Assembly: GCA_903813345.2 (NCBI GenBank)
Contig: CAIIXF020000013.1
Location: 428,508-492,507 of the forward strand
Direction of reading: 5' to 3'
Source: Owenia fusiformis
Lineage: Eukaryota; Annelida; Polychaeta; Sabellida; Oweniidae
Length of the DNA stretch: 64,000 nt
Both the position numbers and the translations under genes were made by a program. The notes beneath the pieces were generated by a model. It did no database searches. It saw only the letters and a program-made list of their open reading frames with translations, and was not told the origin of the DNA. This document shows, piece by piece, positions 19,320-63,244 of this stretch. Numbering within the stretch: the first letter of the stretch is position 1; every line of letters begins with the position of its first letter.

Positions 19320-19323
19320 CTTG
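19320..19323 (+). repeat. Target-site duplication CTTG, left
   Basis: CTTG directly precedes the 5' LTR and is repeated at 27879-27882 after the 3' LTR. The right arm holds one copy (CAAG within GGAAAGCAAGATTGCCAC near 47376-47393). Confidence 0.9.
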
Positions 19324-26467: not shown

Positions 26468-26867
26468 AGAAATTCGAATAGCCTCGCGCGAGTTTTAACT
26501 ACGTGAAAAATGGAATAGCATATCCAACAGATGTTTAATCATATAAAAATGAATAAAAATACAAAAATATTTATAGTTAAATGTTAAAATTTTAAATTTA
26601 AGTGTGCTGTTTTACATGTTTGTAATATCTTAACTTATGTAAGTAAACATACTCATAATAGTTAGGATCGTGGTTGTTTAGCTTAAACATCTAGCTTTAT
26701 CATATTGGATATTATGCATTATAGGGGAGGAATATCCTCAATATTATGATTACAACTTTACATATGTAATAGATACAATAATTTGATGTTAGTTTATATT
26801 TTATAATTTTTGTAATTGTGACCGAGTTAAGGTATCTGCGGTGCATTGATAGACATGTCCGCGTGAA
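26468..26867 (+). other. 3' non-coding part of the LTR element
   Basis: AT-rich. A purine tract AGGGGAGGAA at about 26723 is the only polypurine-tract candidate, but it lies some 135 bp before the LTR; none abuts the LTR. Confidence 0.5.
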
Positions 26868-27878: not shown

Positions 27879-27882
27879 CTTG
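27879..27882 (+). repeat. Target-site duplication CTTG, right
   Basis: Directly follows the 3' LTR and matches 19320-19323. Confidence 0.9.
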
Positions 27883-29500
27883 CTTTCCTGGTCAATGAGC
27901 CCAAACTGTTGTGGTACGATTTTGTTCCTAACATATTTAACCATACTGTGCGCTTTTCATACAGCAATTCAACTGTAAGCTTTCTCTTGAAATATTTGTT
28001 GAATATCTAGCAGAAATTGCTTCCCCCTCCGTCCCATTTTCCCAATCACTGGGAGTGTATATGCATGTACATGTACTTTTTTGTATTTCAGGTAGGAACT
28101 GTCCCGTTTGCAGGTTCAGGAGTTGCTGGAATAGGGTAGGTGCCTTTGAACTAAATATACGTATCGTTGAACATCATTTTTGTCAAAAATAAGATCTTTG
28201 TCACATTTTTGTCTCATTCTGTTCCTTTAGCAGTTATACATAGCTATGAATACATTTTAAAGGTAGAATCAGATATATAGGGGTGACAAAATCACAAGCA
28301 ACATGTACAATTGACCTACCAATCTATTCATATTTACAATCTCAATTACAATATCTCCCAAAAGATTCACAATATTTTATAAATTGGTGAAGTTATTATG
28401 GATCTTAAGTGCAAAAATGGGTGAGAAATGTTTAGATTCCCCAAAATAATAACTATGGTTATCATTCTTATAGAATAATAATACATTATTATAAGCTTTT
28501 TTTGTTTTCCTGAAATAAAGTGTCCAATTTGGGGATTTTTAGAAAATAGACATGACAAGGAATGACATAAGCCAGAAATATTCTAAAATTGAAAAAAAAT
28601 TGTTTGATTGCTCATTATATCTGATTCTCTCTTTAAAGAATAAATAAATATTTCTTCACATCACAGTATGGGACAAGCTCAAATCATCATTACCTTCTCG
28701 TCAAGTTCAATAACATGACAATTTTCCATTTGTAATTTTGTCAATTTTGCCATATCAAACAGTTCTCTGTATTTTACAAGTGACCCAAGAGGGGCAGCTA
28801 TTCTAATTTTTCCATAGGGGTAGTGGGATAAATGTGCAGATTCAGAAACAGGATGTTTTTGTCAACAATCTCATGTTTAAAATGCAGAGGAGGAGTTTTT
28901 CCAAAGGATCCAAAAATTGCCCCCAAAGATTTCGTTGAAAATAATATCGAAATAGTTACTTTTATCAATTATGAATTTACAGTATTCAAAACGAAATTAG
29001 GTCACTCAGATTAAAACTAAGGTCATTCAGTGCATTTAGTTTTATTATGGAATTCATTCTTAGTATCATTTTAGGAGTATGTTAGGCTTCACTCATGAAC
29101 ATTTAAGTATATTGACCATTCATCAGTCCACATATTAAAACATCATTAAGGTAAAACACTAAGGGAAACATATTGAAAATGCATACCATGAAATAACCCC
29201 TAGATATGTAATACAGTGTGTTCAAAAAACACAACAAGCAAAAACATTGTAAAACAATAAAATCAGTGATGTAAGTGTAACCTTCAAGGGTTTCTAAAAA
29301 TGAGGCCTCTGAATGAGTCAAGCACCATTTGATTCAACTGTTGTGAAAAAGTGTCATTATCAGGAATGCTGAAAGCTCTCCTTGAGCCCGACATGAAAGT
29401 TCAACTGATGAATGATCTAATGAATAAAGAAACAATCTTATACCCCCCCTCATCATTTATTCAGGTACCACTTTCAAAATCCAAGTCCAGTGCTTTTAAC

Positions 29501-30000
29501 NNNNNNNNNNNNNNNNNNNNNNNNNNNNNNNNNNNNNNNNNNNNNNNNNNNNNNNNNNNNNNNNNNNNNNNNNNNNNNNNNNNNNNNNNNNNNNNNNNNN
29601 NNNNNNNNNNNNNNNNNNNNNNNNNNNNNNNNNNNNNNNNNNNNNNNNNNNNNNNNNNNNNNNNNNNNNNNNNNNNNNNNNNNNNNNNNNNNNNNNNNNN
29701 NNNNNNNNNNNNNNNNNNNNNNNNNNNNNNNNNNNNNNNNNNNNNNNNNNNNNNNNNNNNNNNNNNNNNNNNNNNNNNNNNNNNNNNNNNNNNNNNNNNN
29801 NNNNNNNNNNNNNNNNNNNNNNNNNNNNNNNNNNNNNNNNNNNNNNNNNNNNNNNNNNNNNNNNNNNNNNNNNNNNNNNNNNNNNNNNNNNNNNNNNNNN
29901 NNNNNNNNNNNNNNNNNNNNNNNNNNNNNNNNNNNNNNNNNNNNNNNNNNNNNNNNNNNNNNNNNNNNNNNNNNNNNNNNNNNNNNNNNNNNNNNNNNNN
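29501..30000. other. Assembly gap (500 N)
   Basis: Exactly 500 N. It cuts the inner end of the left inverted-repeat arm, so the true inner border of the repeat is unknown. Confidence 0.99.
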
Positions 30001-37679: not shown

Positions 37680-38118
37680 CAAAGGAGTTCATGACCATTA
37701 GACTGACAATCACAATGTTACAGCACTTTAAACAACATGCCCCAGTGGCTAATATTGGGCTGTAGGCAAACCTGCTCATGTCATCTAAATTGTCCTATCT
37801 GACTTCTACCTGTGGGTATACACCAAAGATAGAGTGTATGAGAATGACCTCAGGACAATTGCAGACCATAAAAGGAAGATCATCCATGTCATTCAGGCCA
37901 TACCTGCTGAGGAATACAGTTGGATTGTTGCCAGCTTGTGCAGGTTTGCCTACAGGGCGATGATGGCCACACCTGTGACATGTTGTTGAAAGTGCTGTAT
38001 TTTGTGGGATAGTAGGAAATTATATGTTCTACAAATATGTGAAAAATCAGGAAGTTATTTCTTAAAATGACAAAGATATGAGGAAAATGCAGGGTTGCCG
38101 TTTTTTGACCACCCTGTA
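37680..38118. mobile_element. Remnant of an IS630/Tc1-mariner transposon
   Basis: Shares about 430 bp with the element at 59339-59906. Both contain a segment coding RVYENDLxxIAD, then VIQAIPAEE, which looks like the C-terminal end of an IS630/Tc1-type transposase, and both end in an ACCCTGTA terminus (here ending at 38118). The catalytic domain is absent. The left end was not located. Confidence 0.6.
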
Positions 38119-38282
38119 TGATCCCAGTCGCAGTCCACCATCAGCCCCATATCCACTCAAATCAAATATTCCATGACAATATCACCTGAGTAGATATCCA
38201 TGTTTTAAAACTTTTTAAACTAAAAAAAACTCAACGTTTGGAAAAAATTTGGAAAACTGAATAGGCTTACAGCAGAATGACT

Positions 38283-39191: not shown

Positions 39192-40063
39192 ATATCGTAC
39201 CTAAAACACAGCATTGTGGTCTTGTTGACCAAGAAAGCAAGATGGCCACAGAAAAGTTAATCAGCTCTAGAACTTATCACTGTGTAACATATGTAAAAAT
39301 TTGAACGGTTTGGCTAGAAACCTGTAGACAAATCTTGAAAGTGAAGATTTTAGGACGGAAAATCCAAAATGGCCACCTTAAAATTTTCCCAGAATGCCCA
39401 AAAACCAATCAGTTCTTGACGTTAGTATGTAGAAACATCCCTGAAAATTTCAGATGGATTCCTCAAATGGTTTGGCTAAAAATCTGTAGACAAGTCTTGA
39501 AAGTGAAGATTTTAGGACGGAAAATCCAAAATGGCCACCTTAAAATTTAACCAGAATGCCCAAAAACTAATCAGTTCTTGACGTTGATATGTAGAAACAT
39601 CCCTGAAAATTTCAGATGAATCCCTCAAAAGGTTTGGCTGTAAACCTGTAGACAAGTCTTGAAAGTAAAGATTTTAGGACGGAAAATCCAAAATGGCCAC
39701 CTTAAAATTTATCCAGAATGCCCAAAAACTAATCAGTTCTTGACGTTGATATGTAGAAACATCCCTGAAAATTTCAGATGAATCCCTCAAATGGTTTGGC
39801 TGAAAACCTGTAGACAAGTCTTGAAAGTGAAGATTTTAGGACTGAAAATCCAAAATGGTCACCTTAAAATTTACCCAGAATGCCCAAAAACTAATCAGTT
39901 CTTGACGTTGATATTTAGTAACATCCCTGACAATTTCAGATAAATCCCTCAAATGGTTTGGCTGGAAACCTGTAGACAAGCTGAAAAGTGAGACGCCGCC
40001 CGCCCGCCCGCCTGCCGCCCGCCAAGCTGACTACAATATCGTACCTCTTGTTAGGTACGATAT
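39192..40063. mobile_element. Second HINE-like element: terminal inverted motif, tandem array, 3' hairpin
   Basis: ATATCGTACCTAA at 39192-39204 is inverted at 40051-40063. At the right end ATATCGTACCT (40036-40046) and AGGTACGATAT (40053-40063) form an 11-bp stem with a 6-nt loop. Between are about 4.5 tandem units of about 162 bp, each with TTTTAGGAC, AAAATCCAAAATGG and GTTTGGCT. A GCCC-rich run lies at about 39993-40022. Related units, without the hairpin, occur in both arms of the large inverted repeat (18780-19320 and 47430-47930). Confidence 0.6.
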
Positions 40064-42587: not shown

Positions 42588-43205
42588 CTATATGTGAGGA
42601 TAAGGTTGTAGTATATTGATAGGCCAGCTTACACTTACCAATAACTCCAACTGCTATGTCTCAGAAAGTAGGGCTAGAAAAACAAATTGATTTGAATTAA
42701 AAACAAGACATATGGTGATATCACCCTAGGAAGATGGTACTATCCAAAAACAATGAGTGCAGGTATTATGTGCATGAAGTGAGTAAAAAAGTCGTTTTCA
42801 AATTTGATAATTTCATTAACTAAGGCTTAATGGGTACTCAATTTAACTCATACATGTGTAGTGGACACCTTAGAATAAGGAAATTTGAAATTGAATTTGA
42901 AAATGCGTTGTTTATACACTATTTACAGCTTTCATTTAGTATTGATGATCAAAATGATCATTAGATTGTAGATAAAGAAAATTAGATTGTATGATAGTAT
43001 TTGTGAAACAATGCATGTTGTTTTTTAACTGTATAATTATATGTTAATGTCCTGTAATTGATTTTGTAAGGAAACCAAGTGTTTGGTTTGAAACACAATA
43101 AAATCTTGAATCTTGAATCAAAATGACCTATTGGTACAAAATGGCATTCTTAAAGCCCCCATGTAAAGTTTAAACCACTTTGGCTTATATTGTAGTCTTA
43201 CCCAA
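42588..43205. other. No gene; possible retroposon tail near 43085-43120
   Basis: AT-rich. AATAAAATCTTGAATCTTGA at about 43099 looks like the short-repeat 3' tail of a SINE or LINE, but no body was recognised. Confidence 0.35.
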
Positions 43206-44725
43206 TCTATTTATAATTCATCATTCATGCCTGTCCCTGAAGATGATATATTGCTGAGGGACTGGATCAATATCCATTTAGCCATTTAAAGGGACAGTGC
43301 TTGTGAAGTAGTTTACATATTAATGAACACTTAAGTATTTTGAACAGAGAAACAAATGGATCAATCTATCTTGAATTCATTGCTCATCCCTGTCCATGAT
43401 GATATATTGCTGAGGAACTTGATCAATATCCATTTAGCCATTTAAAGGGACAGTGCTTGTAAAGTAGTTTACATATTAATGAACACTTAAGTATTTTGAA
43501 CAGAGAAACAAATGGATCAATCTATCTTGAATTCATTGCTCATCCCTGTCCATGATGATATATTGCTGAGGAACTTGATCAATATCCATTTAGCCATTTA
43601 AAGGGACAGTGCTTGTAAAGTAGTTTACATATTAATGAACACTTAAGTATTTTGAACAGAGAAACAAATGGATCAATCTATCCTTAATTCATTGCTCATC
43701 CCTGTCCATGATGATATATTGCTGAGGAACTTGATCAATATCCATTTAGCCATTTAAAGGGACAGTGCTTGTAAAGTAGTTTACATATTAATGAACACTT
43801 AAGTATTTTGAACAGAGAAACAAATGGATCAATCTATCTTTAATTCATTGTTCATGCCTGTCCATGATGATATATTGCTGAGGAACTTGATCAATATCCA
43901 TTTAGCCATTTAAAGGGACAGTGCTTGTAAAGTAGTTTACATATTAATGAACACTTAAGTATTTTGAACAGAGAAACAAATGGATCAATCTATCTTGAAT
44001 TCATTGCTCATCCCTGTCCATGATGATATATTGCTGAGGAACTTGATCAATATCCATTTAGCCATTTAAAGGGACAGTGCTTGTAAAGTAGTTTACATAT
44101 TAATGAACACTTAAGTATTTTGAACAGAGAAACAAATGGATCAATCTATCCTTAATTCATTGCTCATCCCTGTCCATGATGATATATTGCTGAGGAACTT
44201 GATCAATATCCATTTAGCCATTTAAAGGGACAGTGCTTGTAAAGTAGTTTACATATTAATGAACACTTAAGTATTTTGAACAGAGAAACAAATGGATCAA
44301 TCTATCTTTAATTCATTGTTCATGCCTGTCCATGATGATATATTGCTGAGGAACTTGATCAATATCCATTTAGCCATTTAAAGGGACAGTGCTTGTAAAG
44401 TAGTTTACATATTAATGAACACTTAAGTATTTTGAACAGAGAAACAAATGGATCAATCTATCTTTAATTCATTGTTCATGCCTGTCCATGATGATATATT
44501 GCTGAGGAACTTGATCAATATCCATTTAGCTTATGATTTAAAGGAACGCTGCTTGTAAGGTAGTTTTCATATTAATGAACATTAAAACATTTTAAATGAA
44601 GAAACAAATGGGTTAATCTATTTTTAATTCATCATTCATGCCTGTCCCTGAAGATGATATTTTGCTGAGGGACTGGATCAATATCCATTTAGCCATTTAA
44701 AGGGGCACTGCTTCTGAGATAGTTC
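43206..44725. repeat. 156-bp satellite, about 9.7 units, with ABC higher-order order
   Basis: GATGATATATTGCTGAGG recurs at 43242, 43398, 43554, 43710, 43866, 44022, 44178, 44334 and 44490 (exact 156-bp steps), and again as a diverged unit near 44653. The first and last units are visibly diverged and the inner ones almost alike. Three variants of the junction (CTTGAATTCATTGCTCATCC, CCTTAATTCATTGCTCATCC, CTTTAATTCATTGTTCATGC) follow the order A-A-B-C-A-B-C-C. Confidence 0.95.
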
Positions 44726-45861: not shown

Positions 45862-47204
45862 GTTAAAAGCACTGGACTTGGATTTTGAAAGTGGTACCTG
45901 AATAAATGGTGAGGGGGGGGGGTATAAGATTGTTTCTTTATTCATTAGATCATTCATCAGTTGAACTTTCATGTCAGGCTCAAAGATAGCTTTCAGCATT
46001 CCTGATAATGACACTTTTTCACAACAGTTGAATCAAATGGTGCTTGACTCATTCAGAGGCCTCATTTTTAGAAACCCTTGAAGGTTACACTTACATCACT
46101 GATTTTATTGTTTTACAATGTTTTTGCTTGTTGTGTTTTTTGGACACACTGTATTACATATCTAGGGGTTATTTCATGGTATGCATTTTCAATATGTTTC
46201 CCTTAGTGTTTTACCTTAATGATGTTTTAATATGTGGACTGATGAATGGTCAATATACTTAAATGTTCATGAGTGAAGCCTAACATACTCCTAAAATGAT
46301 ACTAAGAATGAATTCCATAATAAAACTAAATGCACTGAATGACCTTAGTTTTAATCTGAGTGACCGATTTTCGTTTTGAATACTGTAAATTCATAATTGA
46401 TAAAAGTAACTATTTCGATATTATTTTCAACGAAATCTTTGGGGGCAATTTTTGGATCCTTTGGAAAAACTCCTCCTCTGCATTTTAAACATGAGATTGT
46501 TGACAAAAACATCCTGTTTCTGAATCTGCACATTTATCCCACTACCCATATGGAAACATTATTGAACTTGACGAGAAGGTAATGATGATTTGAGCTTGTC
46601 CCATACTGTGATGTGAAGAAATATTTATTTATTCTTTAAAGAGAGAATCAGATATAATGAGCAATCAAACATTTTTTTTTCAATTTTAGAATATTTCTGG
46701 CTTATGTCATTCCTTGTCATGTCTATTTTCTAAAAATCCCCAAATTGGACACTTTATTTCAGGAAAACAAAAAAAAAGCTTATAATAATGTATTATTATT
46801 CTATAAGAATGATAACCATAGTTATTATTTTGGGGAATCTAAACATTTCTCACCCATTTTTGCACTTAAGATCCATAATAACTTCACCAATTTATAAAAT
46901 ATCGTGAATCTTTTGGGAGATATTGTAATTGAGATTGTAAATATGAATAGATTGGTATAGATTGGATTTTGTCACCCCTATATATCTGATTCTACCTTTA
47001 AAATGTATTCATAGCTCTGTATAACTGCTAAAGGAACAGAATGAGACAAAAATGTGACAAAGATCTTGTTTTTGACATAAATGATGTTCAACGATACGTA
47101 TATTTAGTTCAAAGGCACCTACCCTATTCCAGCAACTCCTGAACCAGTAAACAGGACAGTTCCAACCTGAAATACAAAAAAGTACATGTACATGCATATA
47201 CACT

Positions 47205-48665
47205 CCCAGTGATTAGGAAAATGGGACGGAGGGGGAAGCAATTTCTGCTAGATATTTCAACAAATATTTCAAGAGAAAGCTTACAGTTGAATTGCTGTAT
47301 GAAAAGCGCACAGTATGGTTAAATATGTTAGGAACAAAATCGTACCTAACTCACAACAGTTTGGGCTCACAGGAAAGCAAGATTGCCACAGAAAGTTGAT
47401 CAGCTCTTAGACTAGAACTTCTAACCACTAAGGCAATGAGCGTGTGTAAAATTTGCTATGGTTTTCCTTGAATAATGACAAGATTTATCTTAAAACTTTC
47501 AAAATGGCCATCAAAAAGTTAATCAGCTCAAGACTATGTCTCATATGTAAAAATTTGAAGTAAATTTGTCAAATGGTTTGGCTGGTAACCCGTAGACAAG
47601 CCTTGGTAGACAAGATTTTAGGATGAAAAATCCAAAATAGCCGCCCCATGCCAAAAATTGGTCAGTTCTAAACTTTCATACGTACGTAGAAACATCCCTG
47701 GAAATTTTAGATGAATCCCTCAAAGGTTTGGCTGGAAACATGTAGACAAACCTTGACAGACAAGATTTTAGGACGGAAAATCCAAAGTGGGCACTTCAAT
47801 GTTTACCCAGAATGCCCAAAACTAATCAGTTCTAAACTTTTATATGTAGAAACCTAATTGGAAATTTTAGATGAATCCCTTTGGTTTGGCTGGAAACCTG
47901 TAAACAAGCCTTGACAGACCAGGTCTTAGAGACATTTAGGCATTCTAATACTCATCACTTCTTTCTGTCTTCAACTAGAAATACCTTCTAGAATGAAGCT
48001 AACAGAAGGCAATGAATTCTCATGATGGCATTTGGGACCCAAGACCATCTAGGAATTTCAAAGGGACAAATCATAAAGATAATACAATATTTTAGATCTA
48101 ATGTATCATGTAACCATTCTTAGAAGAGATCTTAAGTAAAAGCGAATTCCTGCTCAAGGCAGCCATTTTGATTTTTTTGATTCACAAACCAGAAATAAGC
48201 CACACGGAAAGCCAAACATATATGTTACATATCTTATAGACATACTGCTCCCCCCCCCTCCGTCCCCTCCCCCCTCCGTCCCATTTTAATTATTTTCGAT
48301 TATTTTAACGTATGGAAAAGTATTTTGTAAAGTCATTAAGATCATTAATTTCATGATGATAATGTCACTTACAAATATTTATTGCAGGTTGTGTAGACCG
48401 TTGATGCTTGATTTAAAGTAAAAACATTGACTTGCACGTTGGTTGCGTTGCGCCTTTTTTAATAGATCTTATACCTAAGAAGAGAATCGGCTAAAAAAAA
48501 TTCGTAGAATACGTGACATATTTTACCATACCGTGCGCCTATTCGTTTAGCAATGAAATCATAAACCTTTTCTTGAAAAAATAATTTTTGCAGATTTGTT
48601 CATTTTTCTACCAGAAATTGCTTGCTCCCCCCCCCTCCGTCCCATTTTCACGATCACCAGGCGTG
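47205..48665. repeat. Nested inverted-end module in the right arm (uninterrupted)
   Basis: GAAAATGGGACGGAGGGGG next to AAGCAATTTCTGC at about 47217 is matched inverted near 48620-48655 (CAGAAATTGC ... CCGTCCCATTTTC). Outside, CCCAGTGATT and a diverged ATCACCAGGC keep pairing. It holds tandem GTTTGGCTGG-type units at 47570-47930. Its left-arm partner is 18036-28055, split by the LTR element. Confidence 0.6.
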
Positions 48666-48934
48666 AAGTGAGCATTTGGGAAGTTTTGTCGTTAATTAAT
48701 TAACATTGCATCTGCTGTTGTTACAGTAGTTGTCCATTATTGCTGATTCGAACATGACTGTATTCACGCCTTCTATAAACTGTAAACAAAGTCAATGCTT
48801 CAGCTGGCTTATATTCGAGATCAATAACCCAGTTAATACGTGTAATGTGTGACGTCATAACGGTGGGTCTTAGTAATGGCGGACCATGATGAATATTCGA
48901 AACAATTTGGTGAGTTTTCATGGTCGAATCGTAA

Positions 48935-49098
48935 TATAGACCTCAGAGCAGGGGTAATATCGTCGATTACACCCCTTGGGGCTCGGCACAAAAGCTTTCA
49001 AACCCCTCACTCCCTTCAGTCGTTCGGGGTACAGAAAACGTTTGTGCCTAGCCCTGCGGGGTGTATTCGACGATATAACCCCTGCTCTGAGGTCTATA
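48935..49098. repeat. 164-bp palindromic element in right arm
   Basis: Mirror of 17636-17799, same length. Ends TATAGACCTCAGAGCAGG and its complement. Confidence 0.7.
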
Positions 49099-49523
49099 TT
49101 TCTTAATTAAAGCAGAATGAGTGGATTTCAAGAATTGTTTATTTTGTGGAGAAAATTATTCATTTTAGCAAGAATTTCACTTTTTGCACATACTTGCACC
49201 ACAAAATTTTACTTTTTCCCGTGCAGAATTTGGCGCATTATTTTATAATTCATTCAGAATTTGGCTTTTTCATGCAGAATTTCTGGGTAGAATTTGCATT
49301 TTTCTCATGTAGAAAACTAGTGTGTGTGTATCACAGCTCGCTGCTTATAGTAGGCAGCGGTTAACCAAACCCGTCTGGCCCAGTTATCTACTCCCGATGT
49401 CGTAGATCTGGGCCAGACAAGGTCCAATGCAAAAAATGGGGTATTTACTCCGGAAAAAACACACTGGTTTTTCAATGTATAATACGTGCTGATAAATGAA
49501 TAAACATCATAAAAAACATTTAC

Positions 49524-49874
49524 GTGTTTGTTCCTTGTATCAAACTTTGTATTTATATTAGGTTTCCATCGCTGGATGACGGCTAATAGATAAGAACGAA
49601 ACGATAAAACGCAGCAAAAGAAAAATTCTTCTGCAATCTGTTCGTGATCTCTTAGGATATCGAGAAGTCTCGGCTGCATATTTCGTTCAGTACTACATTC
49701 GGTCAGTTCAACAAATCGAAAAATCGTATTTAATGTCCACAATATTTCTTTCAAGTCTAAATACAACACAGATACGTCTGTTTTATAAAGAAATCTACAT
49801 TTTGATAACAAATCTGCTAAAAAATCGTAATATTTGGAATGTATTGATTCCCGGGAAATGTATTTTCGTTCCAT
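49524..49874 (-). CDS. Unrecognised exon-like frame, right-arm copy (open)
   Basis: Open frame of 117 codons from Met (MERKYISRESIHSKYYDFLA) to a possible donor CAC|GTAAAT. The sequence is rich in hydrophobic helix text (LYLDLKEILWTLNTIF, FFFCCVLSFRSYLLAV) and ends KPNINTKFDTRNKHV. The left-arm copy preserves the peptide apart from one indel and has the better donor, GTAAGT. I do not recognise a family. It lies between the ends of a nested inverted repeat, so it could belong to a small transposon rather than a host gene. Confidence 0.35.
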
Positions 49875-50657
49875 GAAAGTTAAAAAATTATCGCGTCACA
49901 CTTATGTTACGTCACATCACGTGACTTTATTCGGTGCGGAGAGCTGACGAAAATATTGAAGAAATGTTGTGCCCATTTCAACATCAATATAACAAACAAA
50001 ACACCACATTTACGTGCAAGTAATATACTCTTTATTTCAAATAAATACTTGGGTTTACGTGGAGCCCGATGTTTTGGTTGGATGGCTAATAGGGAATGAA
50101 TAATAAGTGATGATTCACCGACATGTTTTTTCCGGAGTAAATCCCCCCTTTTTAGCAGTGGACCTCGTCTGGCCAAGATCTACGACGTCAGGAGTAAATA
50201 ACTGTGCCAGACGGGTTTGGTTAGGCAGCGATGTGATGACGTCACCCACTTGTTGGCACCAAATTCCGAACTCCCGTGCAGTGATATATCACTGCGGCGG
50301 GCAGGTATCTCACCGTAAGCATGGTAACTTCGTAATAAACAACTGACGTGATTGGTTCTAGTCCCATGCTCAGGTCGCGTGATTGTAAAATTCAGACAAT
50401 TTCATTGGTTGAATTGCGCGTATTAACTAATAAACAACAATTGCGGTAAACTATTATCAACAAAACTTTTACTCAGAATTCCTTCCGCGGTGATTTCTCC
50501 TCATATTTCAATAATTTTGAAATATTTTGACAAAATAATGTTTGGGGAACATTCATGAATACATATTTTATAAGTTGTGTGAAAATTGACCACATATGCG
50601 ATAAAAAAAGGGAACTATTTTCCCCAAATTTTGGGGATTTGCTTCATCTGCCCGCCG

Positions 50658-50731: not shown

Positions 50732-50741
50732 CCAGGATTAC
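50732..50741 (+). repeat. 10-bp target-site duplication, left (CCAGGATTAC)
   Basis: Identical to 63235-63244. Directly outside the left TIR of the Mutator-like element. Confidence 0.9.
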
Positions 50742-50795
50742 GGTCGCGAGTAAATCTCAGGCACGACATGGAAATCTGAAATTAAAGAGGGCGCA
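50742..50795 (+). repeat. Left TIR of the Mutator-like element
   Basis: Begins GGTCGCGAGTAAATCTCAGG and ends GAGGGCGCA. Inverted partner at 63181-63234 with one mismatch. Confidence 0.92.
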
Positions 50796-52703
50796 AATCC
50801 AAGTGCACTTGTACCGGAAGTCTGTCTAAATATGGCGGGACTACACAAATTCGACCTACTTTTGTACCACGTGATGTGTTTTAGCCAATAGCCGAGGGGC
50901 TGCTAGATGTCTGTCAAGTTATAGTATTTATGTCTCAAATAAAAATGCATTATATCTCATCTTATATTGGACTTTTAAGTTACATTATTGAACCCATTAA
51001 CAGCACACTAAGTGATTTTTCCTGATCCAAAAATTTCTTCTGAGCCCTTGGTGTTCTTAATTCTTAGTGATTAATCTTGATCCTAGGTGATTGTTATTGA
51101 TCTTAAGTGATAATGTTTTTGATCCTTAGAAATATCCTCATGATCTTGATCTTTGGTATCTGTCTTGATCCTTAGGGATTGGGTCGATCCTAAACAATTT
51201 TACAGGTGATTGTTCTTAATCTTAAGTGATTGTTTTTATTACTTTAATTTTTTCTTGACTCTTCTGGGCAATTGTTTGGTTGTGATTCTTAATATTTTGT
51301 TTTGATACTGTGATTGTACTCAATTGTTCTAATCTTAGTTGATTGTCCCTGGTTTAGGTGATTGTTCCTGATCATAAGTGATTTACCTTGATCCTTGATA
51401 TTTTTTCTTTACTAAGCTCGGTCAGTACGTGGTTGATTGTTTTAGAGCATATTAATTGGTCCCTATGTGATTTGTGATCGTGCTGGTCAAATGTGGTTGT
51501 ACAATGTACAATAGACTATTAAGGTACAGCTGGAAATTTGAAATTGTAAAAAATAAAAAAAAAATTGAAATTGAAATTACCTTTTATTGGTTACAATTGT
51601 TGAAAATTTAGATCAATTTAGTATCCCTATGTCACCATATCATCATAATACCTGTTAAAGTGTATGTAATTAGCAGAGGAATCTAATTATCACTAATTAG
51701 ATGTGAAGAAAACACCAAGTCTATAAGTACATATAATTTCAAAAATAATATGTATTGACACTAGAAATATAAATATCGCTTACTACACATATCAAAGACC
51801 TGAAATAAGTAAAGTTTTGAATTGAAAGTGATTCATAGAAGCCATAAAATTGATCTAAATGTCAACCTTGTAAACTTACCATGTGGCAAAAATACTGTCC
51901 ACCATATTGGAAAATATGGAACTACTTTTGACCTACTTATAGTTGTTTGTAAACAAAAGCACATGTGTGAACAGTCACAATGCATATATAGTGTGTTCAT
52001 TGCAGTAATAAACTGCACAGGTGATTCTTTTCAACAGTAGATAAAAAAAGCTACTTCCCAGAGTGATACAGTTATAAAGTATTATAAAGTACATGTACTG
52101 TCATCATAGCATGAAGTATAATAGTGAGAAATGAAGGTTCATAATATATACTTACAGTAAAGTATTTCTGTTTTCAAATATCTGTAGATCACTATACAGC
52201 AAATTCAATGATTTCAGTATCTCAGTATTCTCATGAAAAATGGTACTTCCTTTTTATCAATGTCCATCCAATTTTTTCAGTCTGTCAGTAGCACTTTGAT
52301 ATCTTTATTTCCTGTAGACAGGAAATGCCTCAATGTCCATACCAATATTTATGCAGTAAGTGAAATGTTTTATTTCTATTTATTAAGTCATCCAGAGTCA
52401 ATCTCTCCCTATATATTTACTCAAAATTCATCTTATCATTTTAGAAGCACTTTGGTATCCTAATCTCCTGTAGGATTAATGTCTGCTAATATTTACAAAG
52501 GTTGTCTCTGTTAATCCAATGTATCATAGCTCCTTGGTTTCAGAATTAATCTCTATTTATTTTTAGAAGCACTTTGGTATCCTTATCTCCTGTAGAGTTA
52601 AAAGTCTGCTAATATTTCCAGATACTGTACATGCCAATCCAATGTTTAATGTTATTTGTCATATACAATGAATTTCCTTTTATATTCCTGTTTAGGGTGA
52701 CAT
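50796..52703. other. Non-coding left part of the Mutator-like element
   Basis: 51000-51430 is a degenerate array of short words around TGATCCTTAGTGATTG, with no fixed period. The rest is AT-rich. Polyadenylation of the gene must occur here; no certain signal was picked out. Confidence 0.5.
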
Positions 52704-52870
52704 TTATAATATTGTCAAAGTATTTGATTTGAAGTCTTCCATCAGTTCTGAGTAAGATAAGATAACTTCTTCTGAGTCAGAATCAGATATATCATCCTGG
52801 TTATCATATATCAATGCATAAGAAGCGGTCTCTGTTCCATCAGTTCCAGAAAGAAGCCTGGTTACTTTGC
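52704..52870 (-). CDS. Last exon of the Mutator-YqaJ gene: acidic tail
   Basis: With exon 11 (53285-53197) it forms a module reading GKHISHTW, DTVYSGKVTRLL, YALIYDN, DISDSDSEE, MEDFKSNTLTIL. The rhythm of short beta strands with a W and Y, an acidic loop and a terminal DFK-x-x-x-L resembles small Tudor/chromo-type barrels found at the ends of some invertebrate transposon proteins. This fold is inference. Confidence 0.6.
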
Positions 52871-55800
52871 CTGAAAACATATAAGGAAAATCTTGGAATG
52901 TATGTGTTCTATACATAATTCACATTAAACGTCATTGCAATATTATATTTGTAATCTTCTAGTACCAGGTAGGGAGGATTGTAAAAATTATTGCACGTAT
53001 ACAACATTGTCATTCTGGAATACAAGTATGCAATACAAACTGAAAGGGGGTGGGATTGAAATTGCATTCAATTCACTTTTACTCTTTAACACTACATGTA
53101 CTAGAAAAAAATGTTTTTAAAATAATCTATGAAGCCAAACATCAACTGGATGACTCTCCATCACTATGCTTTGAAAAGGGAGACATTTGTACATACCACT
53201 GTAAACTGTGTCAGTACCATTACTTTCAGTCCAAGTGTGAGAAATGTGCTTTCCAAGAAACAAAACATTACTGTTCACATCATTCCTACAAAAGACATGA
53301 CATATTGTCATAACATTTAAAAAATAACACCTATTTTTTAAGTAATGTAATAGACAAATTTAAGAGATAATGATGTAAGAATGAAGCTTGAAAAGGATGC
53401 ATCAAGATACAACTAGGTATGAGATACAAAATGTAACCACCTGCCAATTGTTAAAGACAAACCATCAAAACAATAAACACCAAACAACATCGACAATGAA
53501 GTTGGAGACAACAATATGTTGCCAATCGTGCTTGTGACATAAATGCTACATTTTCTGTGTTTTCTGGGGTATCAAATATCACAACTTTATCTCTGTACAA
53601 TTTGAAAGGGGGAAACAACAGATGAGCATTCATGATCTTATGTTAACATGTATGTGTAGTCCAAGTTTGTCAAAGTTTGTTATATTCGTACTGGTGCATA
53701 ATAACAATTTTTAAGTGACATTTATCCAACTTTACCTAAGAGCAGAGATGACTTTGTCAGCCATGGGTTCAATGTCAGATGTGTGTTCAGTCATCCATTC
53801 TTCACCTAGACTATTAAACAGAGGTGTCTTTATTTAAAAATGGGTGTCACTAGACATTCTATGGAAATATATATGGAAATATACATATGGAAATTGCATG
53901 AAATTTGAGATGGTCACTTGGCTTATTTTGAGGTCCACTTCTTTTAATGAACAGGACAAAGTGAATGAAATGTTAGAAGTCCTGAGTACATGAATTGTAT
54001 GCAGTAATATACTCACACTTTCTTTCTACACTTTCTTGCACTACGCCTGGAAGCTACATTTGATTCTGATGAAGTACTGGGTTGAGGTACTTGGGGCTCA
54101 TTGTGACCTCTGTAAATAATGTTTATGCTAAAGGTTGCAAGACAGTGTTTTTCACTCCTTTTCATAGATTTAATAGGGCATGTTTCAATCTTACTTTTGC
54201 TTGCTTTTAAATAACAAAAAATGTGAGTTTCAATAATAAAATGATTTTGCATCATCATTGCCCTTGATCATTTATTGGAAATAATTACCTCTGATCAGGG
54301 TTTTTCCGTTTTCTTCTTACACTTAGATGTTGAGTTATGTCTTGAGCTGAGATGGACCTTTTTGTACGCTTGCTTGAACTGAATTCATCCCACTGAAAAA
54401 GAAAAGAATATATTAATACAAGCAATATCATTGTGTCATGGCTAGTTTTGTTACTTGGCAGAATTGTATGTATTCATTTTAAATGATTACTATGTGTAGG
54501 ATGTTGACAATTATTTGTAATAACAAAATAAATTTTCATTAGAAACAAAGGACCTTAGTTATAAGAAATGTTTAAATCAAGACATAATGTCATTATTCAA
54601 GTTGTCACAATCATGAATATAGGCACATTACATGAACTGAAAATAAAGTCCAGTGACAGTAATACTTGTCATGCTTGCCTAGCTAATTTCTATTTGCCTC
54701 ATCGAATCGGGGAATGGCCCTGATATTTGCAGAAGCTCATAGAAAATACATGAGCAGGTTATTCAGTGCAATACATACATTGTACAGTTATATAGTGTAA
54801 AATGCATTCCTAAATCTAATACATTTACATAAAGTTGGTTACGGTCATTATATATATTATACTATGCATAGTATTTAATGGTTTATTCCATAATGTTATG
54901 GCTAGCTTGGATGCAGCCCAAAGCATCCACTGGACCTGAAAATGAAATGTTAAAATTAAATAGTGCACCTTAATTGTATACATAAAAAATAATTTCCATA
55001 CAAAAGGAATATGAATGTTTTAGTACATTAAATCTATGAAAGTTGAATGTTGAAGCTGATGTTTAAGTTGGGAAAACTGACAAGTCTTACAAAAGTTAAT
55101 TTTACACTAAATATATTTAAGTATAACATAATCTGCTCCATTATTGGCATTTTTGGAAGTGTTCCACTTTCAGCATTGATCCACTTTTCAGTTTTTACAG
55201 TATCATGGTGAACAATAATATGACAGACAACCTAAAAGTACCTAAACAACATAATGTAGGCATACAAACATATATTAACTATGTATGAGGTGAATGTATT
55301 AGACATTGAAAGATCAATGTGTGTGGCACATCACAGTCAGATGAATTACCCATCCAGTTGTTGGCTCCCATATGCCAGGGTGTTTCTGGTGGCGTGGAAC
55401 TGCTAGTTCCCGAAGTAATGCATCAAAGTAAAACTTCCGTAGTCTTGGTAGCATAAAGGAGGTGAACATGTTGTCATCTCTTTGTATCCTTTGTATGACA
55501 ATGTCATTTGGGTCATCACTACCAACAACAAGGTCAACCCAGTCAAGGTCGTAGCACTGAATTTGACCATGTATCTGGAAGAAGAACTTGTGGTTCTTCT
55601 TCAGTTGGAGTTTGCCATTGACAAATGTCAAGCAGAACGAGATGTTCTTAGCAGCCTCTCGCAGGGATGTTGATTTGCCATGCAACACCTTCTTACACTC
55701 GACACCATTCCTCCTGTCCTTGTGAGCTAGGGGATCAACATTGATCCCATCACAAGAGGCACATAGGAAATGATGTTCCCTGTGCACCTTGACCCCACAC

Positions 55801-58800
55801 TTCCTCACAATGACAGGGTCAGCTTGCTCCTTCATGTGTTTCTCATAGTGTCTTATAAGTAAGCCCTCTGACATCAATCCATCCTTTGTAGAGGAGTTTC
55901 CAGTAAAAGGAGTGTACAGCTTGTTAGTAATGAAAGGGGTGACTGGTGTTGTGCTCCTCCTATTGATGATCATTCCAAACGTGGATGCGGATAGCCGAAT
56001 CCTTCTCGCTGAAAACCAATCTGGAGATCCAGATTGATGGATGGTGTCCTTTTCCAATTGCACACAGCCAGCTGGACTCATAACAACATTGTCTAAATGA
56101 AACATTGATAAATATTAATAAATATTAATATGATTCCTGTAAAAAAATGAAGTGAATTTTCATTAGGATAAAACAAAGTAGCAAACAAAAAAGAAACAAG
56201 ATATGTGACAATAACAAGCTGAAAAGTCTCATTACATGTTCATATTCTATCAAATAACTTATTAAACTCATTCTGAGTAATATCAAACACTGGGAAATGC
56301 CGAGACATTTATGCTACCTTTGTAAAACTTATTTTTCATTTCCTGGACTGTTTCTTCGGAGAAAACTGGTTCAACTTGAACCGCATTTGGGCCATATTGA
56401 GTTTCCCCTTTGGTCTTACTACCCCTCCTCTGTTTTGCCTTGTACCTGGCACTCTGGCATTTAGCAGATCTGGTGCGCTCATTTTCTAGGATGCGCTTGC
56501 GTACCTGTTTCAATAATGACAAAATCTAAAATTCTATATTAATTAATGCTTTCTACCTGGAAAGAAACATATGGGATGACGTAAGTAATATCTTCATCTT
56601 TACCTTTCTATGATATTGTCAAATATCATGAACCGATAACAATCCTAAACAGATACTGAATTACTATATAATAATAATTAATTCATGAAAAGAGTATGTA
56701 ACTAGAAATCAGCAACTGCACTGAGTAGCAAATCCTTTAGAACCAATGCTATTATTGATGAATATTTATATGTCACAATGTAATATTTTCTATGTACTCT
56801 TCGCTTATATTCCATGGTAGTGTTACCTTACTTTAAAGAGATCGTTAAGTAATAGTAAATTCCTGCTCCAGACAGCCATTTTTATTTATCTGCCATCCAA
56901 ATCAGAAAAACAATACCATTATTGTGATCAACAATAAAATACATTCAATCTGAGTATAATATAGAAATACTTTGACGAGATCAGAAAATTACTGCGGTAT
57001 CCCACGTTAGGTGGCTATTTCAAAATGACTGATGCCTGAATCAGAAGAACGATACAAAATTTGAAATCGCAGACGGCCGAACAGACAGACAGCTTCACTA
57101 GATCCCTAAAGATTTTTGTTTGTTGGGGATAATAACCTGTGTATTTCCATATTTCAAAAATATGTCTGAGGCAGGATTGGAGGTGATCTTGGTATAACAT
57201 CTGGCTGCCCAATCCGGCCCCATACTGGATCTAAGCATCGCAGCAAAAATCCTGGTTATCCAAGCTCCCCTGTGACATTTGTGGATGCGTTTTCCTCCAT
57301 CAAATTTGCATCGTAAACTCATCCAGCCTTCGCACAAATTTGTATTGAAGTTGCCAATAAGTTTAAATGCCTGTATATGTAAAAACATACAGTAATATAA
57401 TGAAGTTATCAAAAACAATACGCAAGATCGCATGGTCTTTGTAACCTAAAGATTCAAAGGTCATTGTATGAAAATTACATACCAGTAGTTAATATATATA
57501 TACAGCATATATCTGAACAACTGGCCAATCCGAACACCTCCCAATCTGAAAACTTTTATTGGTCCCATTTTTTCCTCCCATTGACTCCCACGTAAAAAAT
57601 TTGAAAGTGTGAACACCTCTCAATTTGAACAGTGAACAGTCATGTTTGAACAATTAACCTGTCTAATCTGAACACCGTTCATAAAATTTCACATGTTACA
57701 AAAATTGCTGAAAACTTGAATGGTTTTGATTATAATAGGGCTTTCCAGCATCACTAAATTCATTTGAATCGAATTTTCAAATTTATGAAATACTGCGAAG
57801 CTATGTGGTCAAATGAACTATAAATATTTCTTCAGAATCCATAATCCAGAGAATGCAAAAACCTAGAAATGTGAACACTTCCTAATCTGAACGCCTTAAG
57901 GCAGTCCCAATAGCTTTTAGATTAGACAGCTTCTACTGTACTGTACTTGTAATTAATTTTGTACTTCTTTATTTTGTACATTTGCTGTTTGAAACATTTA
58001 AAGGCTACTTAATTCTGCAGACTCGCAATATTACAATACACATGGTACTAAAATAAATGGTGAATTTAGCATCTACTTAATCTGGGGGATTTTCCAATTT
58101 GTAAGATCTGCCAAATTATGTTCATTTCATAATCAATCCAAAAAAGTGTATGATTTTTTGAAAATTAAGCTTCAAACATTTTAATCCCTCATATTCCACT
58201 ATGGGAGGAAAGATGGTATATTAATTTTAAAAAACAAAGATCCATCTAAAATTTCAAGTCAGTCCAAATGTACCGGATTTTCTCGCATATACGCCCCCCT
58301 AAACTTAGGCCAATGGGACAAAAATCGAATGTAGTACACTTATACGCCCATGGGCCTATAAAAAATGACTATTTATTGATTTTTTTCAATAAATTCAAGG
58401 GTATTTTGTCACTGGCAGATCATTCTATCGTTACTTTGTTTCAACATTAAGTTCAACGCTGTGCCGCAAGTGGCAGTGGTGGATCGTTCTGTTGTTACTT
58501 TGTTTCAACATTTAAAGTCCAAGGTTGTAGGTGACATTTCCTTTATAATTCTTACAAAACATGCGGTAGGACTACAACACTAGGTACGGTAGTCTTTGAG
58601 GAAGATCAGCTCTTCTCACCTTTACGCCCACTGGGCCAAAAATCGAAAGTAGTACACTTATACGCCCATGGGAGAAAAATAAGAGGTAAAATAACAGACG
58701 AAATTACCCCTTCTTTCAGTTATACGCCCAGGGCATATATACGAGAAAATCCGGTAATGGATTCTTGGAACAAAGGAAAATTTTACAATTAATCTATCAG

Positions 58801-61800
58801 CTACTAATAAACTGCTTCAATAACCTGCCATAATAAAATATGAAAGCATATTAAAGAATTAAAATAAAATAAAGGAAAACAAGACATAAGCATGCAGAAT
58901 GTCACCTGCCATTTGTTACAGATACCAAACTCTAACCGCTAACTGCCAATCACCATCCACAAAAATTGTGCCATGTCTATTCATTATATCATTTTAACTT
59001 ACTTTATTGGCAGTTATATTTAGTATTGAATGAAGATGAGCCAATAATGTCTCGTCAATTGGTGTTTTATCTGAGGCTATGCTTCTAGAAGCTTCTTCTT
59101 CTTCAATTGACATTCCTTGTGTCCAATAAGCCACCTCTTGCTCAATACAATTTTGGACAAGTGCAACACCATCCATGTCTTCCTCATCCTGAACTTCCTC
59201 TCCTACTAACAGGGGATCGCATGAATCATCATCAGCTGAAATTAAACCGTACTATACATGTGCTAATATCATGTATACTGCATCTATCTCGGTAGTAGAA
59301 CTTACTGGTGAATACTTTAAAAATAAAAACTACACATACAGGGTGGTCCAAAAAAATGGAAACCCTTATGGCATTTTCCTCATATCTTTGTCATTTAAAA
59401 AAATAACTCCCTGATATTTTCCACAAGTGTACATCATTGCATTTCCTACCAGCTATATTTCATGACCATCAGATTGATAGTCACAATGTTACAGCACTTT
59501 AGGGAACATGCCTCGGTGGCCACTTTTGGGCTTTCAGCAAACCTGCACTCATAGTCCAAAATGTGACTACCTGTAGGTATACGCGAAGATAGAGTGTATG
59601 AGAATGACCTCAAGGCAATAGCAGACCTCAAAAGTGAGATCATTCGTGTCATTCAGGCCATACCTGCCGAGGAATAGATTTAGGTCATTGACAACTGTGC
59701 AGCTTTGACTTAATTGCTATAATGCCCAAACATGAATCATGTTGTTCAAAGTGCTGTAAAATTTTTACTATCAGTCTGATGGTCATGAAATATGCTAGGG
59801 TGGTAGGAAAGTGAAAAATGTACAAATGTGTGAAATATCAGGGAGAAATTTTTAAAAATAACTAAGATATGAGGAACATGCAGGGTTTCCATTATTTCCC
59901 ACCCTGTACTTGATGCAATTATGTATATTTCTCCTTACATTTTTTGGATTTGCACCAGACCGAATCACACAAACTGTGGTGTCCAAAAACGTGGCGGGCG
60001 ACATTTATTATGTCTCTGCGTAATAATTCAGTGATATACCCTTTCTTCTCAGGCGTTTCCTCTAGTTGTTTTGTGCGCATTCTAATCGCACATCTTACTG
60101 AGCTCACCATTTTAATTCGTTTTTCAAGAGTTAGTATTTGTTTAAACTTTGGATTCTCCTTTACAAAAGTTTCAAGCCTGGTTCTGACATTTTTGGTAGC
60201 ATGATTAGAACATTCGACTTTTTGCATTCTTTCACACCATTTTGGGCCATATTTGAGCAAAGTTGCTTCACAGCTACTATCGCCATCTCCAAGGAGTTTC
60301 AAATATCTAATGCCGTACTTTTCTTCACATTCACTAAAGGCCTGCAGACAAATATCTGCTTCCATAGCCTGACTTGACTGGGTCCAATTTTTAAAGCATG
60401 TATGCTGAAATAATTATGAGGTGTGAAATAATCCATGTTTAATATTTTTTAATACATATTGCCATGTTAAGATGAAATGTTTATAGTGGAAATAATAGAA
60501 AACAAAAACGCATCTGAGTAGCAAATATAGATTTTAATATGATTTTATTCAGTTTATTTGGCATTTTTGATTTGCAAATTCAAAATCTGAAAATATCTGA
60601 AAAGTGATAGGCCGTCCAACTATCCCGAAATTCACGTCTGTGAGACATTTGCTGAAGAAATTGAAGTCACATCCATTTTTCACATTTTTCTGATTATTGT
60701 CAAGCAAAAATATTTCAGGAGAACATAAAAAAATGTATGCCAAAAAAAATAAATGTGAGGTGTTCAAAATGGGTGTGATTTGACTGTAATTTAATAGCAC
60801 ACACCAACAAAGGTGTTCAGATTTGGACCAAGGTGTCCACAATTTGAAGGAAGGTGTTCAACATTTGTTAGTCACTCATTTTTGGTGTTCCAGGTTGACA
60901 GGCCTGAAGACAAGGCAAATGCATATGAAAAATATTCTATTCTATGGACTACTTCACACCTTTGGGATTGGTTGCTCCAGGTTTGTGTATTTTGTACACA
61001 TGTAGCAGTCTTTTATTCTTATTCCTACAAAGAGGGGCTTTTTGGTTCTAACACCAAATACAACTCCTACACCACCCTTAGCGGTGTAACTATGCTTATG
61101 GGCAGTTTTACACCATCCAGCATCAAAAGCCACAGGAACAATGGGGATTCCTTCATCAAAGTCAACTGAAATAGAAAACCCTTTGATTTGAAGAGAATCT
61201 TAAAATGCACAATACTATAATTTGTTATGAACCATACTTTATAAAATACTGATCATTGTGAACTAAATCAAATTCTTGGTATTTGTGTTATCATATTTCT
61301 TTAAATTATCAAACATTTCATAAAAAATGCTGGCCATTTTGAATTCCGAGATTTAGATGAAAACACAAGCAAAATGCATGAAAAAAGCTCCCCAGATTCA
61401 TTCTACAAACAACTCACGGTCCTTCACAAATTATTAAAATTGAAAGATCAATTCAATCACCTGCCAGTTTTTTCTCCTCTTTAGCATTTAGCATTAGTTC
61501 TTCTTGGGTTATATTTTTCAAGGACTGTCCTATTTCAGATTCGATTTTTGCATACGTTTTGAAACTTATGGTCCCAATGCCCATGGCGGCAAATGTTTCA
61601 TTGAAACTTGACTCCCCACTACCAGTAAGAATGCTGGCGAAAACTGCACGAAAGTTGATATCATGAGTCTTGTCTTTTTTTTTACTTGTTCTGAAGGAAA
61701 AGGTCTTGAAGCATCCATTACAGCATATTCTTATTGTTTTCACAAGTCCACAGTACTTTTTCTCGGAAATAGCAAATAAATTGGAGGTCACCTGATGGAT

Positions 61801-62064
61801 TTTCTCACAAGATAATGCGTGAGTGGCAATAGTGTTTATAATGTTGTCGAATATGGTATTATCTATAATCCTATAGCCAGCTTTTGTCTCCTTGTTTTCA
61901 ATTTTTATTGTAACTTTTGGAATTTTGGGCAACTTATCTGTAATGTTTTCACTGGGTGTAATATGAGCCTTGTACTGCTGGTACTGAGATTTTTTAATTC
62001 GAAGAACAATGTTGGGGGATTCTCTTGACATTTTACGTCTATTAAAAGGTTTGAAACGAGGCAT
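52704..62064 (-). CDS. Mutator-like transposase fused by splicing to a YqaJ-type nuclease (1066 aa, 12 exons)
   Basis: Exons: 62064-61461, 61165-60960, 60404-59939, 59235-59003, 57370-57137, 56504-56318, 56092-55350, 54392-54289, 54109-54017, 53810-53736, 53285-53197, 52870-52704. Every intron is GT-AG, all phases agree, and the exons total 3201 nt, or 1066 codons plus stop. Residues about 60-425 match the Mutator-like transposase domain: C-rich cluster in exon 1 (CNGCFKTFSF), VAFDAGW with D216, KHSYTAKGGVGVVFG, NWTQSSQAMEAD, and LGDGDSS with D310/D312. Exon 5 keeps the late NTNLCEGWMS ... FDGGKRI block. Residues about 660-890 are a YqaJ/lambda-exonuclease fold. A basic linker and an acidic C-terminal module follow. 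Start chosen at MPRFKPFNRRK; an upstream exon may extend it. Presumed role: transposition of the element, the nuclease perhaps processing donor or target ends. Confidence 0.85.
53438..53550 (+). repeat. Short dispersed repeat, copy 3 (intronic)
   Basis: ACCACCTGCCAATTGTTA ... AGTTGGAGACAACAATATG, the same core as 1305-1475. It lies between exons 10 and 11 of the transposon gene. Confidence 0.5.
55350..56092 (-). CDS. YqaJ-type PD-(D/E)xK nuclease exon (exon 7)
   Basis: The largest exon, residues 644-891 of the fusion. Family features in order: SPDWFSARRIRLSASTFG (the W-R-L-S-F lead-in), an E-bearing helix near E719, CASCDG with D758, VECKK with E775 and K777, then FFFQIHGQIQCYDLDWVDLVV. D, E-x-K and the Q motif form a complete PD-(D/E)xK site. 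YqaJ nucleases are known as phage/viral recombination exonucleases that degrade DNA from ends. No inactivating change is seen. Confidence 0.88.
57503..57938. mobile_element. Tigger/pogo-type MITE in an intron
   Basis: Left end TACAGCATATATCTGAACAA and right end TAGACAGCTTCTACTGTA are imperfect inverted partners with TA at each border. The inside repeats TCTGAACACC/CCGAACACCTCC, the usual terminal text of pogo-like elements. No transposase. Confidence 0.5.
58273..58754. mobile_element. Tc1/mariner-type MITE in an intron
   Basis: CCGGATTTTCTCGCATATAC and its inverted partner at 58735-58754 are framed by TA (58271-58272, 58755-58756). The interior repeats TTATACGCCCATGGG and AGTAGTACAC twice. 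482 bp, non-coding. Confidence 0.75.
58885..58978 (+). repeat. Short dispersed repeat, copy 4 (intronic)
   Basis: CACCTGCCATTTGTTACAG, then ATACCAAACTCTAACC and a CACCATCCACAAAAATTG end, as in the copies at 1305 and 2697. Confidence 0.5.
59339..59906. mobile_element. Deleted IS630/Tc1-mariner element with about 150-bp TIRs in an intron
   Basis: CAGGGTGG ends with TA duplications (59337-59338, 59907-59908). About 150 bp of each end pair, including TTTCCTCATATCTTTG / ATATGAGGAACATG and TTTCATGACCATCAGA / TCTGATGGTCATGAAA. Between them is a leftover transposase C-terminus (RVYENDLKAIADLKSEIIRV) that ends at a stop after IPAEE. The catalytic part is missing. Confidence 0.75.
59939..61165 (-). 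CDS. Catalytic core exons 2-3 of the Mutator-like transposase
   Basis: Exon 2 (61165-60960) and exon 3 (60404-59939) hold the RNase H-like core: GIPIVPVAFDAGWCKTAHKH with D216, then KDCYMC, then MEADICLQAFSECEEKYG, KLLGDGDSSCEATLL and a VECSNHATKNVR block. D216 and D310 or D312 are the likely metal-binding aspartates. A third acidic residue could not be fixed by eye. Confidence 0.82.
61461..62064 (-). CDS. First main exon of the Mutator-like transposase
   Basis: 201 codons. Basic N-terminus (MPRFKPFNRRK), then GYRIIDNTIFDNII, a cysteine cluster with CEKIHQVTS and CCNGCFKTFSF, and NFRAVFASILTGSGESSFNE, as in the N-terminal half of the Mutator-like transposase family. Ends CTGGCAG|GTGATT. Confidence 0.85.
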
Positions 62065-62272
62065 ATTTGCAGTTGAACTTACGATGAATTTTGAATTTTA
62101 CTTTTAGATTTTTTTAAAAATGGCCGAATGACCTAGAAAAGAAATCAACAAATTATTACATGGATTAGTGAAGCAATGCGATGGCGATCGTCGGTATCTT
62201 CCCTGGAAAATGAAAAATGGGGTAGTAAGGTTGAATAAGACATGCACATTGTGACAAAATAAAGTATCTTAC

Positions 62273-62359
62273 CTTGGAAACGAGTGATTTTCTTTAGCTT
62301 TTTTCAGAGATCCCATAGTAGCAACCGATTCGCCACTTCCGCCGGAAAACACATGTTCC
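62273..62359 (-). promoter_or_regulatory. Probable leader exon of the Mutator-YqaJ gene
   Basis: TTTTCAG, then 87 bases, then AAG|GTAAGA. It contains an in-frame ATG (MGSLKKAKENHSFP) that would join the main exon through a weak AG at about 62079, adding a short basic N-terminus. It may instead be 5' UTR. No core promoter was identified upstream. Confidence 0.4.
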
Positions 62360-63180
62360 CTGAAAATAGTTACAATATTAACCAAACGACTTTATATATG
62401 ATAATTATTCTGTAATTATATCCCTTTCTATGTACAGAAGTGGAAAAATATGCTTAAGCATCCATATCTGTTTTCGATAAGACAAATTCAACAGAATAAA
62501 TTTCGCGCAATGATATAACATTTGACCTACAAAATGGCGATTTCGGGAGATATTGTTTATATCGTATACATTACATTTTTATGCCCGATCTGTGAAGGCG
62601 ATTGCCGATCTTAAGGTATGTAAATATAGCTCATGATATTTACAAATGAAATAACAACATTTGGTGTGTGATTTATATTCACATATTGGTGGATCGGCTA
62701 CATGAAAAGTTATTATGTATTTTTTTTAAATTTAGCATTGTGGGTGATAATTGACACTTTTTTAAAACCTATTTTTCTCGAGGTTTGATCCAACATTCAT
62801 ATCAAACATCACTTATCTATTGTCTATTGTATACAAAATACTGATTTATGCATTTATGTCATGATTGCAATCTTAAAACCACATGTGATATGTACCTCAA
62901 AAATGTATTTTTATCCTTCACATTACACTTCATTATCATGTCCACGTGAGGATAATGTTTTTTGGGGCCATTTGAATCATAAAGACTGGATATCAGAGGT
63001 AATTTTGGTACCACATTCATTATATCTCTTAGATATGATTTTGTTGAAAATGCACTGTTTTAGAAGGGGTATAATTTTGGGTATTTTTCATTTTCACTGG
63101 GAAACCTCGCCTTAATATACTAGTATTGTCCAAAATTTCCCGGGAAATCTCATTTCATTTCGCCGTGTGTAAAATGAATA
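62360..63180. other. Upstream region of the Mutator-YqaJ gene inside the right TIR
   Basis: AT-rich with no coding recognised on either strand. The element's promoter should be here or in the TIR. Confidence 0.45.
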
Positions 63181-63234
63181 TGCGCCCTCTATAATTTCAG
63201 ATTTCCATGTCGTGCCTGAGATTTACTCGCGACC
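63181..63234 (-). repeat. Right TIR of the Mutator-like element
   Basis: Inverted match to 50742-50795. One mismatch (A versus T near the inner end). Confidence 0.92.
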
Positions 63235-63244
63235 CCAGGATTAC
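63235..63244 (+). repeat. 10-bp target-site duplication, right (CCAGGATTAC)
   Basis: Identical to 50732-50741. Confidence 0.9.

Follow-up and report, generated by a model that had tools for sequence, protein, structure and literature searches.

Within the window, by which we mean the whole 64,000-nt stretch of DNA analysed, an element of 12,493 bp occupies positions 50742-63234 and carries perfect 10-bp target site duplications (TSDs) on both sides. The TSD, CCAGGATTAC, lies at 50732-50741 on the left and at 63235-63244 on the right, as the original prediction had it; it abuts the terminal inverted repeats (TIRs) and occurs only these two times in the window. The TIR arms were located by inverted-repeat search at 50742-50801 (left) and 63175-63234 (right), 60 nt each with a complementarity of 95%. 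When read inward from the outer ends, their 54-bp core gives 43 matches, one mismatch and another 10 matches, and the 54-bp repeats claimed earlier are therefore identical at 53 of 54 bases. Because the runner-up among inverted-repeat pairs more than 10 kb apart was a mere 30 nt at 80% (among the 25 of 36 pairs listed for the window), the TIR match is far above chance. No third TIR copy was detected in the window by blastn.

Two repeats were observed within introns of the gene carried by the element. Intron 3 holds a fold-back repeat at 59337-59908, which has a 72% relative at 37688-38120 of the window. Intron 4 holds a repeat of approximately 490 bp at 58271-58756, and its 26-nt inverted ends and TA flanks make it look like a small non-autonomous transposon. 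Given these repeats, the element copy is probably not a brand-new insertion.

Other repetitive sequences were seen in the same window. An LTR retrotransposon at 19324-27878 shows RT, RNase H and integrase in the order of Gypsy, together with a PNMA-like gag; its two LTRs, 1,011 bp each, are 100% identical, and it is likely a recent insertion. The matching inverted copy has the site empty near 47380; CTTG stands at both edges. The window also contains a large inverted duplication whose facing arms, 95-98% identical, comprise 16100-19323 plus 27879-29500 on one side and 45862-50633 on the other. One arm reaches an N run (29501-30000), and the duplication ends about 100 bp from the left TSD of the transposon. 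Possible explanations are a larger element that has these arms as its long inverted repeats, a segmental duplication, or an artefact of assembly. A Helitron-like protein at 10268-13978, next to an N run, unites in a single open frame a PIF1 helicase and an endonuclease/exonuclease/phosphatase domain; a partial direct copy lies alongside. Tandem arrays were found at 43203-44713 (156-bp units, 9.6 copies) and 39307-39991 (162-bp units, 4.2 copies).

The gene of the element was rebuilt as 12 exons on the minus strand, with GT-AG borders in 11 of 11 introns and a total of 3,201 nt, or 1,067 codons. The spliced product has 1,066 residues, its sole stop is the last codon, and the ATG is preceded by two in-frame stops. 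Hence every part of the 12-exon minus-strand model put forward earlier (exons, borders, codon number and final stop) was recovered. According to the splice model, exon 1 (61461-62064) carries the ATG and the start of the Mutator domain, which continues through exon 2 (60960-61165), where the candidate first aspartate D216 is located, and exon 3 (59939-60404), which contains the candidate D310 and a CxxH motif (C335, H338). The candidate third acidic residue E517, placed from the MULE pattern, falls in exon 5 (57137-57370). On the splice model together with a codon score, exon 4 (59003-59235) encodes an acidic insert and exon 6 (56318-56504) a basic linker leading from the transposase to the nuclease. 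Exon 7 (55350-56092), defined by the splice model, profiles and alignment, holds the entire matched YqaJ / lambda-exonuclease-like region, including D758, E775 and K777 in the numbering of the full protein. The remaining exons 8 (54289-54392), 9 (54017-54109), 10 (53736-53810), 11 (53197-53285) and 12 (52704-52870, with the stop codon) were again supported by the splice model and codon score.

Each of the 12 exons is open in the model frame, and this frame has the top codon score of the three. Since exons 1-7 and the introns served to train the score, it is circular for those seven exons and only exons 8-12 provide an outside test. The joint score of exons 8-12 was 26.3, compared with a mean of -22.5 (sd 9.9, maximum 18.2) for 2,000 null sets, none of which reached 26.3; these sets were open intron stretches matched in length to exons 8-12, and the same introns had built the score background, which favours a high result. 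As the observed score lies above all null sets, the tail encoded by exons 8-12 is probably coding, though it has no domain match. Read-through of the exon 7 donor meets a stop 12 codons on and intron 7 contains two poly(A) hexamers; thus a transcript form ending shortly past exon 7 is possible. Eight hexamers (AATAAA/ATTAAA) were counted 3' of exon 12.

Residues 83-421 of the spliced protein match PF20700, the Mutator-like transposase family, with an E value of 2.3e-68, above the Pfam cut-off. Apart from PF20700 and the nuclease described below, Pfam gave no match with E up to 1; neither the classical MULE domain nor any other transposase family was reported. The candidate catalytic residues D216, D310 and E517 and the CxxH at 335-338 were assigned on the assumption that the MULE pattern applies; they were placed by this pattern rather than by alignment, and so were the spacings of 93 and 206 residues between the three acidic positions. 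For comparison, the DDE spacings of arthropod MULE families are reported to be mostly 60-76 and 120-135 (with gaps), reaching up to 84 and 214 (PMC13359780). Comparison of the Mutator part with solved structures gave one chance match (E 1.9).

Further along the spliced protein, residues 668-781 match PF09588 (YqaJ) with an E value of 9.5e-7, also above the Pfam cut-off, and thus both domains named in the original prediction were detected by profile. The match scored 29.6 bits in the full protein and 32.6 bits with exon 7 alone (E 1.2e-7), against a cut-off of 22, and spans profile positions 1-116 of 150. The matched region lies entirely within exon 7, a single exon of 743 nt. Among the phage families of PHROGs, exon 7 matched a RecE-like exonuclease (1.5e-6) and a further exonuclease family (2.7e-5), and with the NCBIfam lambda-exonuclease model it scored 23.4 bits, below the cut-off of 68.05.

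Exon 7 and three phage exonucleases, among them that of lambda, were then aligned. This 4-row alignment contains 14 invariant columns, including lambda D119, E129, K131, R28, S35 and Q157. D758, E775 and K777 correspond to lambda D119, E129 and K131, which we take to be the catalytic residues, and R724 occupies the column of lambda E85, the first conserved Glu. With 8 rows, the D119 and Q157 columns stay and E719 meets lambda E85, but the E and K of the element fall out of line with the phage E-x-K, owing to a longer loop. The alignment is thin, with identities of 18-23%, and unstable between 4 and 8 rows. The YqaJ nuclease is probably active. A direct search of solved structures gave no match to exon 7. 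The exonuclease of phage PS-1, a weak relative of exon 7 (E 0.01), itself matches the structures of lambda exonuclease and 3syy (LHK-Exo). AlphaFold prediction of exon 7 alone, run without relatives, gave a mean pLDDT of 33.6 and was unusable as a structure. Thus exon 7 shares its nuclease family with lambda exonuclease, LHK-Exo and RecE (by Pfam and PHROGs) as well as active-site residues in the 4-row alignment. These enzymes, however, are stand-alone phage proteins, with an annealing-protein neighbour in lambda and PS-1, whereas the nuclease of the element is predicted to be joined to a transposase; six-frame Pfam search of the element at E up to 0.1 yielded no domain of an annealing protein.

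The same six-frame scan, in which stops were read as X, returned only the PF20700 and PF09588 families. Relatives were sought in collections of viruses, phages and prokaryotes. The full protein had no related locus in the viral contigs or the phage collection. Stricter Mutator patterns, both of which match the window itself, gave 0 hits in prokaryote genome contigs and 0 in viral contigs, and 13 pattern matches in viral contigs yielded nothing convincing when those loci were examined by tblastn (best E 1.6). With the exon 7 pattern, 11 viral-contig stretches were matched and 0 confirmed; four phage records matched exon 7 weakly (best E 0.01), and a search for viral relatives using a phage exonuclease likewise confirmed none. 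That the element as a whole came from a virus or a bacterium was rejected, as no relative of the full protein or of its transposase was found in the viral, phage or prokaryote collections; given what these collections cover, this absence says little about animal relatives.

A YqaJ nuclease next to a transposase has a precedent in ISL2EU elements of the PHIS superfamily, animal DNA transposons in which a DDE transposase is likewise accompanied by a YqaJ exonuclease domain. In the published accounts drawn on here, the exonuclease is a second, separate ORF beside the transposase (PMC4482050, PMC9179366), and the role of this extra ORF is stated to be unknown (PMC4482050). According to the same descriptions, ISL2EU has two ORFs, a PIF/Harbinger-related transposase with THAP/HTH, and an AT dinucleotide as TSD. 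The present element differs from it in having one predicted spliced gene, a transposase of the Mutator type and a TSD of 10 bp in place of the AT dinucleotide, and no PIF/Harbinger-related transposase with THAP/HTH was found in its six frames (Pfam, E up to 0.1). Derivation of exon 7 from a nested ISL2EU element was also considered and rejected: since the six frames hold, at E up to 0.1, no Pfam domain besides the two named, exon 7 does not come from a nested ISL2EU with a recognisable transposase. By analogy, the presence of a YqaJ gene in ISL2EU, with its different transposase superfamily, hints that such nucleases may be useful to transposons. YqaJ domains are also counted among transposon-related families in a report on scallop (PMC10225492).

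With MULEs, the element has in common the PF20700 Mutator-like match, the TIRs and a TSD within the 8-11 bp range given in Table 1 of a MULE review (PMC6446971). Its protein, unlike that of classical MULEs, gave no hit to their Pfam domain at E up to 1. The element is also longer, at 12.5 kb, than the 1.4-10.0 kb reported for arthropod MULEs (PMC13359780). The extra parts given in Table 1 of the review include zinc fingers, FAR1, PMD, OTU, SET and some unknown ORFs or inserts, with no YqaJ among them (PMC6446971), and section 3.2 of the arthropod survey names the catalytic domain and zinc fingers only (PMC13359780). A fusion of Mutator and YqaJ domains was found in none of the matches listed from a search of full-text literature. 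Because the protein matches PF20700 rather than the classical MULE domain, MULE catalogues may miss the kin of the element, and because PF20700 elements may lie outside such catalogues, the absence of such a fusion from these matches is weak evidence of novelty. Uncharacterised invertebrate proteins with both domains may exist in the databases. A YqaJ beside a transposase is already known from ISL2EU; what may be new is that the partner is of the Mutator type and that both are fused in a single chain.

The fusion depends on the join between exons 6 and 7. By simple splice-site scoring, the exon 6 donor ranks last of the 11, its score being equalled or exceeded by 26% of the 650 GT in the element; the exon 7 acceptor shares the lowest acceptor score with exons 3, 4, 6 and 9, a score that 27% of 690 AG reach. 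Hence the fusion hinges on the least certain of the joins. Exons 1-6 and 7-12 might accordingly be transcribed separately, as two genes in one transposon, comparable to the separate YqaJ ORF of ISL2EU. This arrangement, which we regard as rather unlikely, agrees with the position of the weak sites exactly at this join, with a stop reached after 11 further residues when the exon 6 donor is read through, with an ATG in the exon 7 frame shortly 5' and another shortly 3' of the acceptor, and with the ISL2EU precedent itself. However, intron 6 is 225 nt long and contains no AATAAA or ATTAAA, so there is no sign of a gene end ahead of exon 7, and the frames agree across the join, though this would happen by chance in one case out of three. 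Transposase and nuclease are likely to form one polypeptide, by way of one predicted splice join. As to the fusion that had been claimed, both domains and a single open splice model were found, but the donor at the join between exons 6 and 7 scores lowest, and the fusion itself keeps the status of a prediction.

Taken together, we interpret the element as a complete, apparently intact, cut-and-paste Mutator-like (PF20700) DNA transposon of an intron-bearing eukaryote, presumably an invertebrate. Its one gene most likely encodes a transposase that carries a YqaJ (lambda-exonuclease-like) nuclease at its C-terminus, and this nuclease would act in the processing of the donor break; we assign this reading a probability of roughly 50%. 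In such a process, the transposase would bind the TIRs and cut the element out, and the DDE transposase would insert it with a 10-bp stagger, as the TSD and the family suggest. The fused nuclease, held at the break, would process the donor ends 5' to 3', and this may steer gap repair toward copying from the sister or homologue. The element would thereby be restored at the donor site and gain copies. For the nuclease, we rank donor-break processing first, separate genes second and a TnsA-like cutting of the second strand third.

In the last of these, the nuclease, which we take to belong to the PD-(D/E)xK type, would cut the 5' strand at the element ends, and the DDE domain would cut and join the 3' strand, like TnsA and TnsB of Tn7. 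We consider this unlikely: YqaJ/lambda exonucleases need a DNA end, nothing in the element shows endonuclease activity, and the likeness to TnsA is one of enzyme type. Nevertheless, the element seems to fuse a comparable pair of enzymes, and its D...E-x-K is present in the 4-row alignment. In published descriptions of Tn7, the restriction-endonuclease-like TnsA cuts the 5' ends and the DDE transposase TnsB the 3' ends, and natural TnsA-TnsB fusions occur, so that a DDE transposase works with, or is fused to, a nuclease, as is proposed for the element (PMC10761935, PMC9527255). Tn7, on the other hand, is bacterial, carries TnsA rather than YqaJ and has a TnsC ATPase, and the resemblance is an analogy that does not rest on homology. 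Extended further, this analogy would make the element a eukaryotic counterpart of TnsAB, in which the DDE domain would cut and join one strand, the fused phage-recombinase-type PD-(D/E)xK nuclease would cut or trim the other, the element would control excision as well as the repair outcome, and ISL2EU, with its YqaJ, would have arrived independently at an unfused form of this solution; such an extension seems to us quite improbable.

It is more doubtful still that the YqaJ part serves only as a DNA-binding or scaffolding module with its cutting activity unused. Although the Pfam match stops at position 116 of the 150 of the profile, the 4-row alignment shows D, E and K of the catalytic site retained. 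Least probable of all is a capture of the YqaJ exons by this copy in the manner of Pack-MULEs, with no part in transposition: one copy is known and MULEs, as reviewed, tend to pick up host gene fragments (PMC6446971), but the matched domain is entire, all exons are open and the active-site residues are kept.

If the preferred reading of a fused, break-processing nuclease is true, having transposase and nuclease in one chain would link the nuclease physically with the transposition complex, and its role would become directly testable by point mutation. If the nuclease does act in transposition, two transposase superfamilies would have recruited the same phage-type nuclease.
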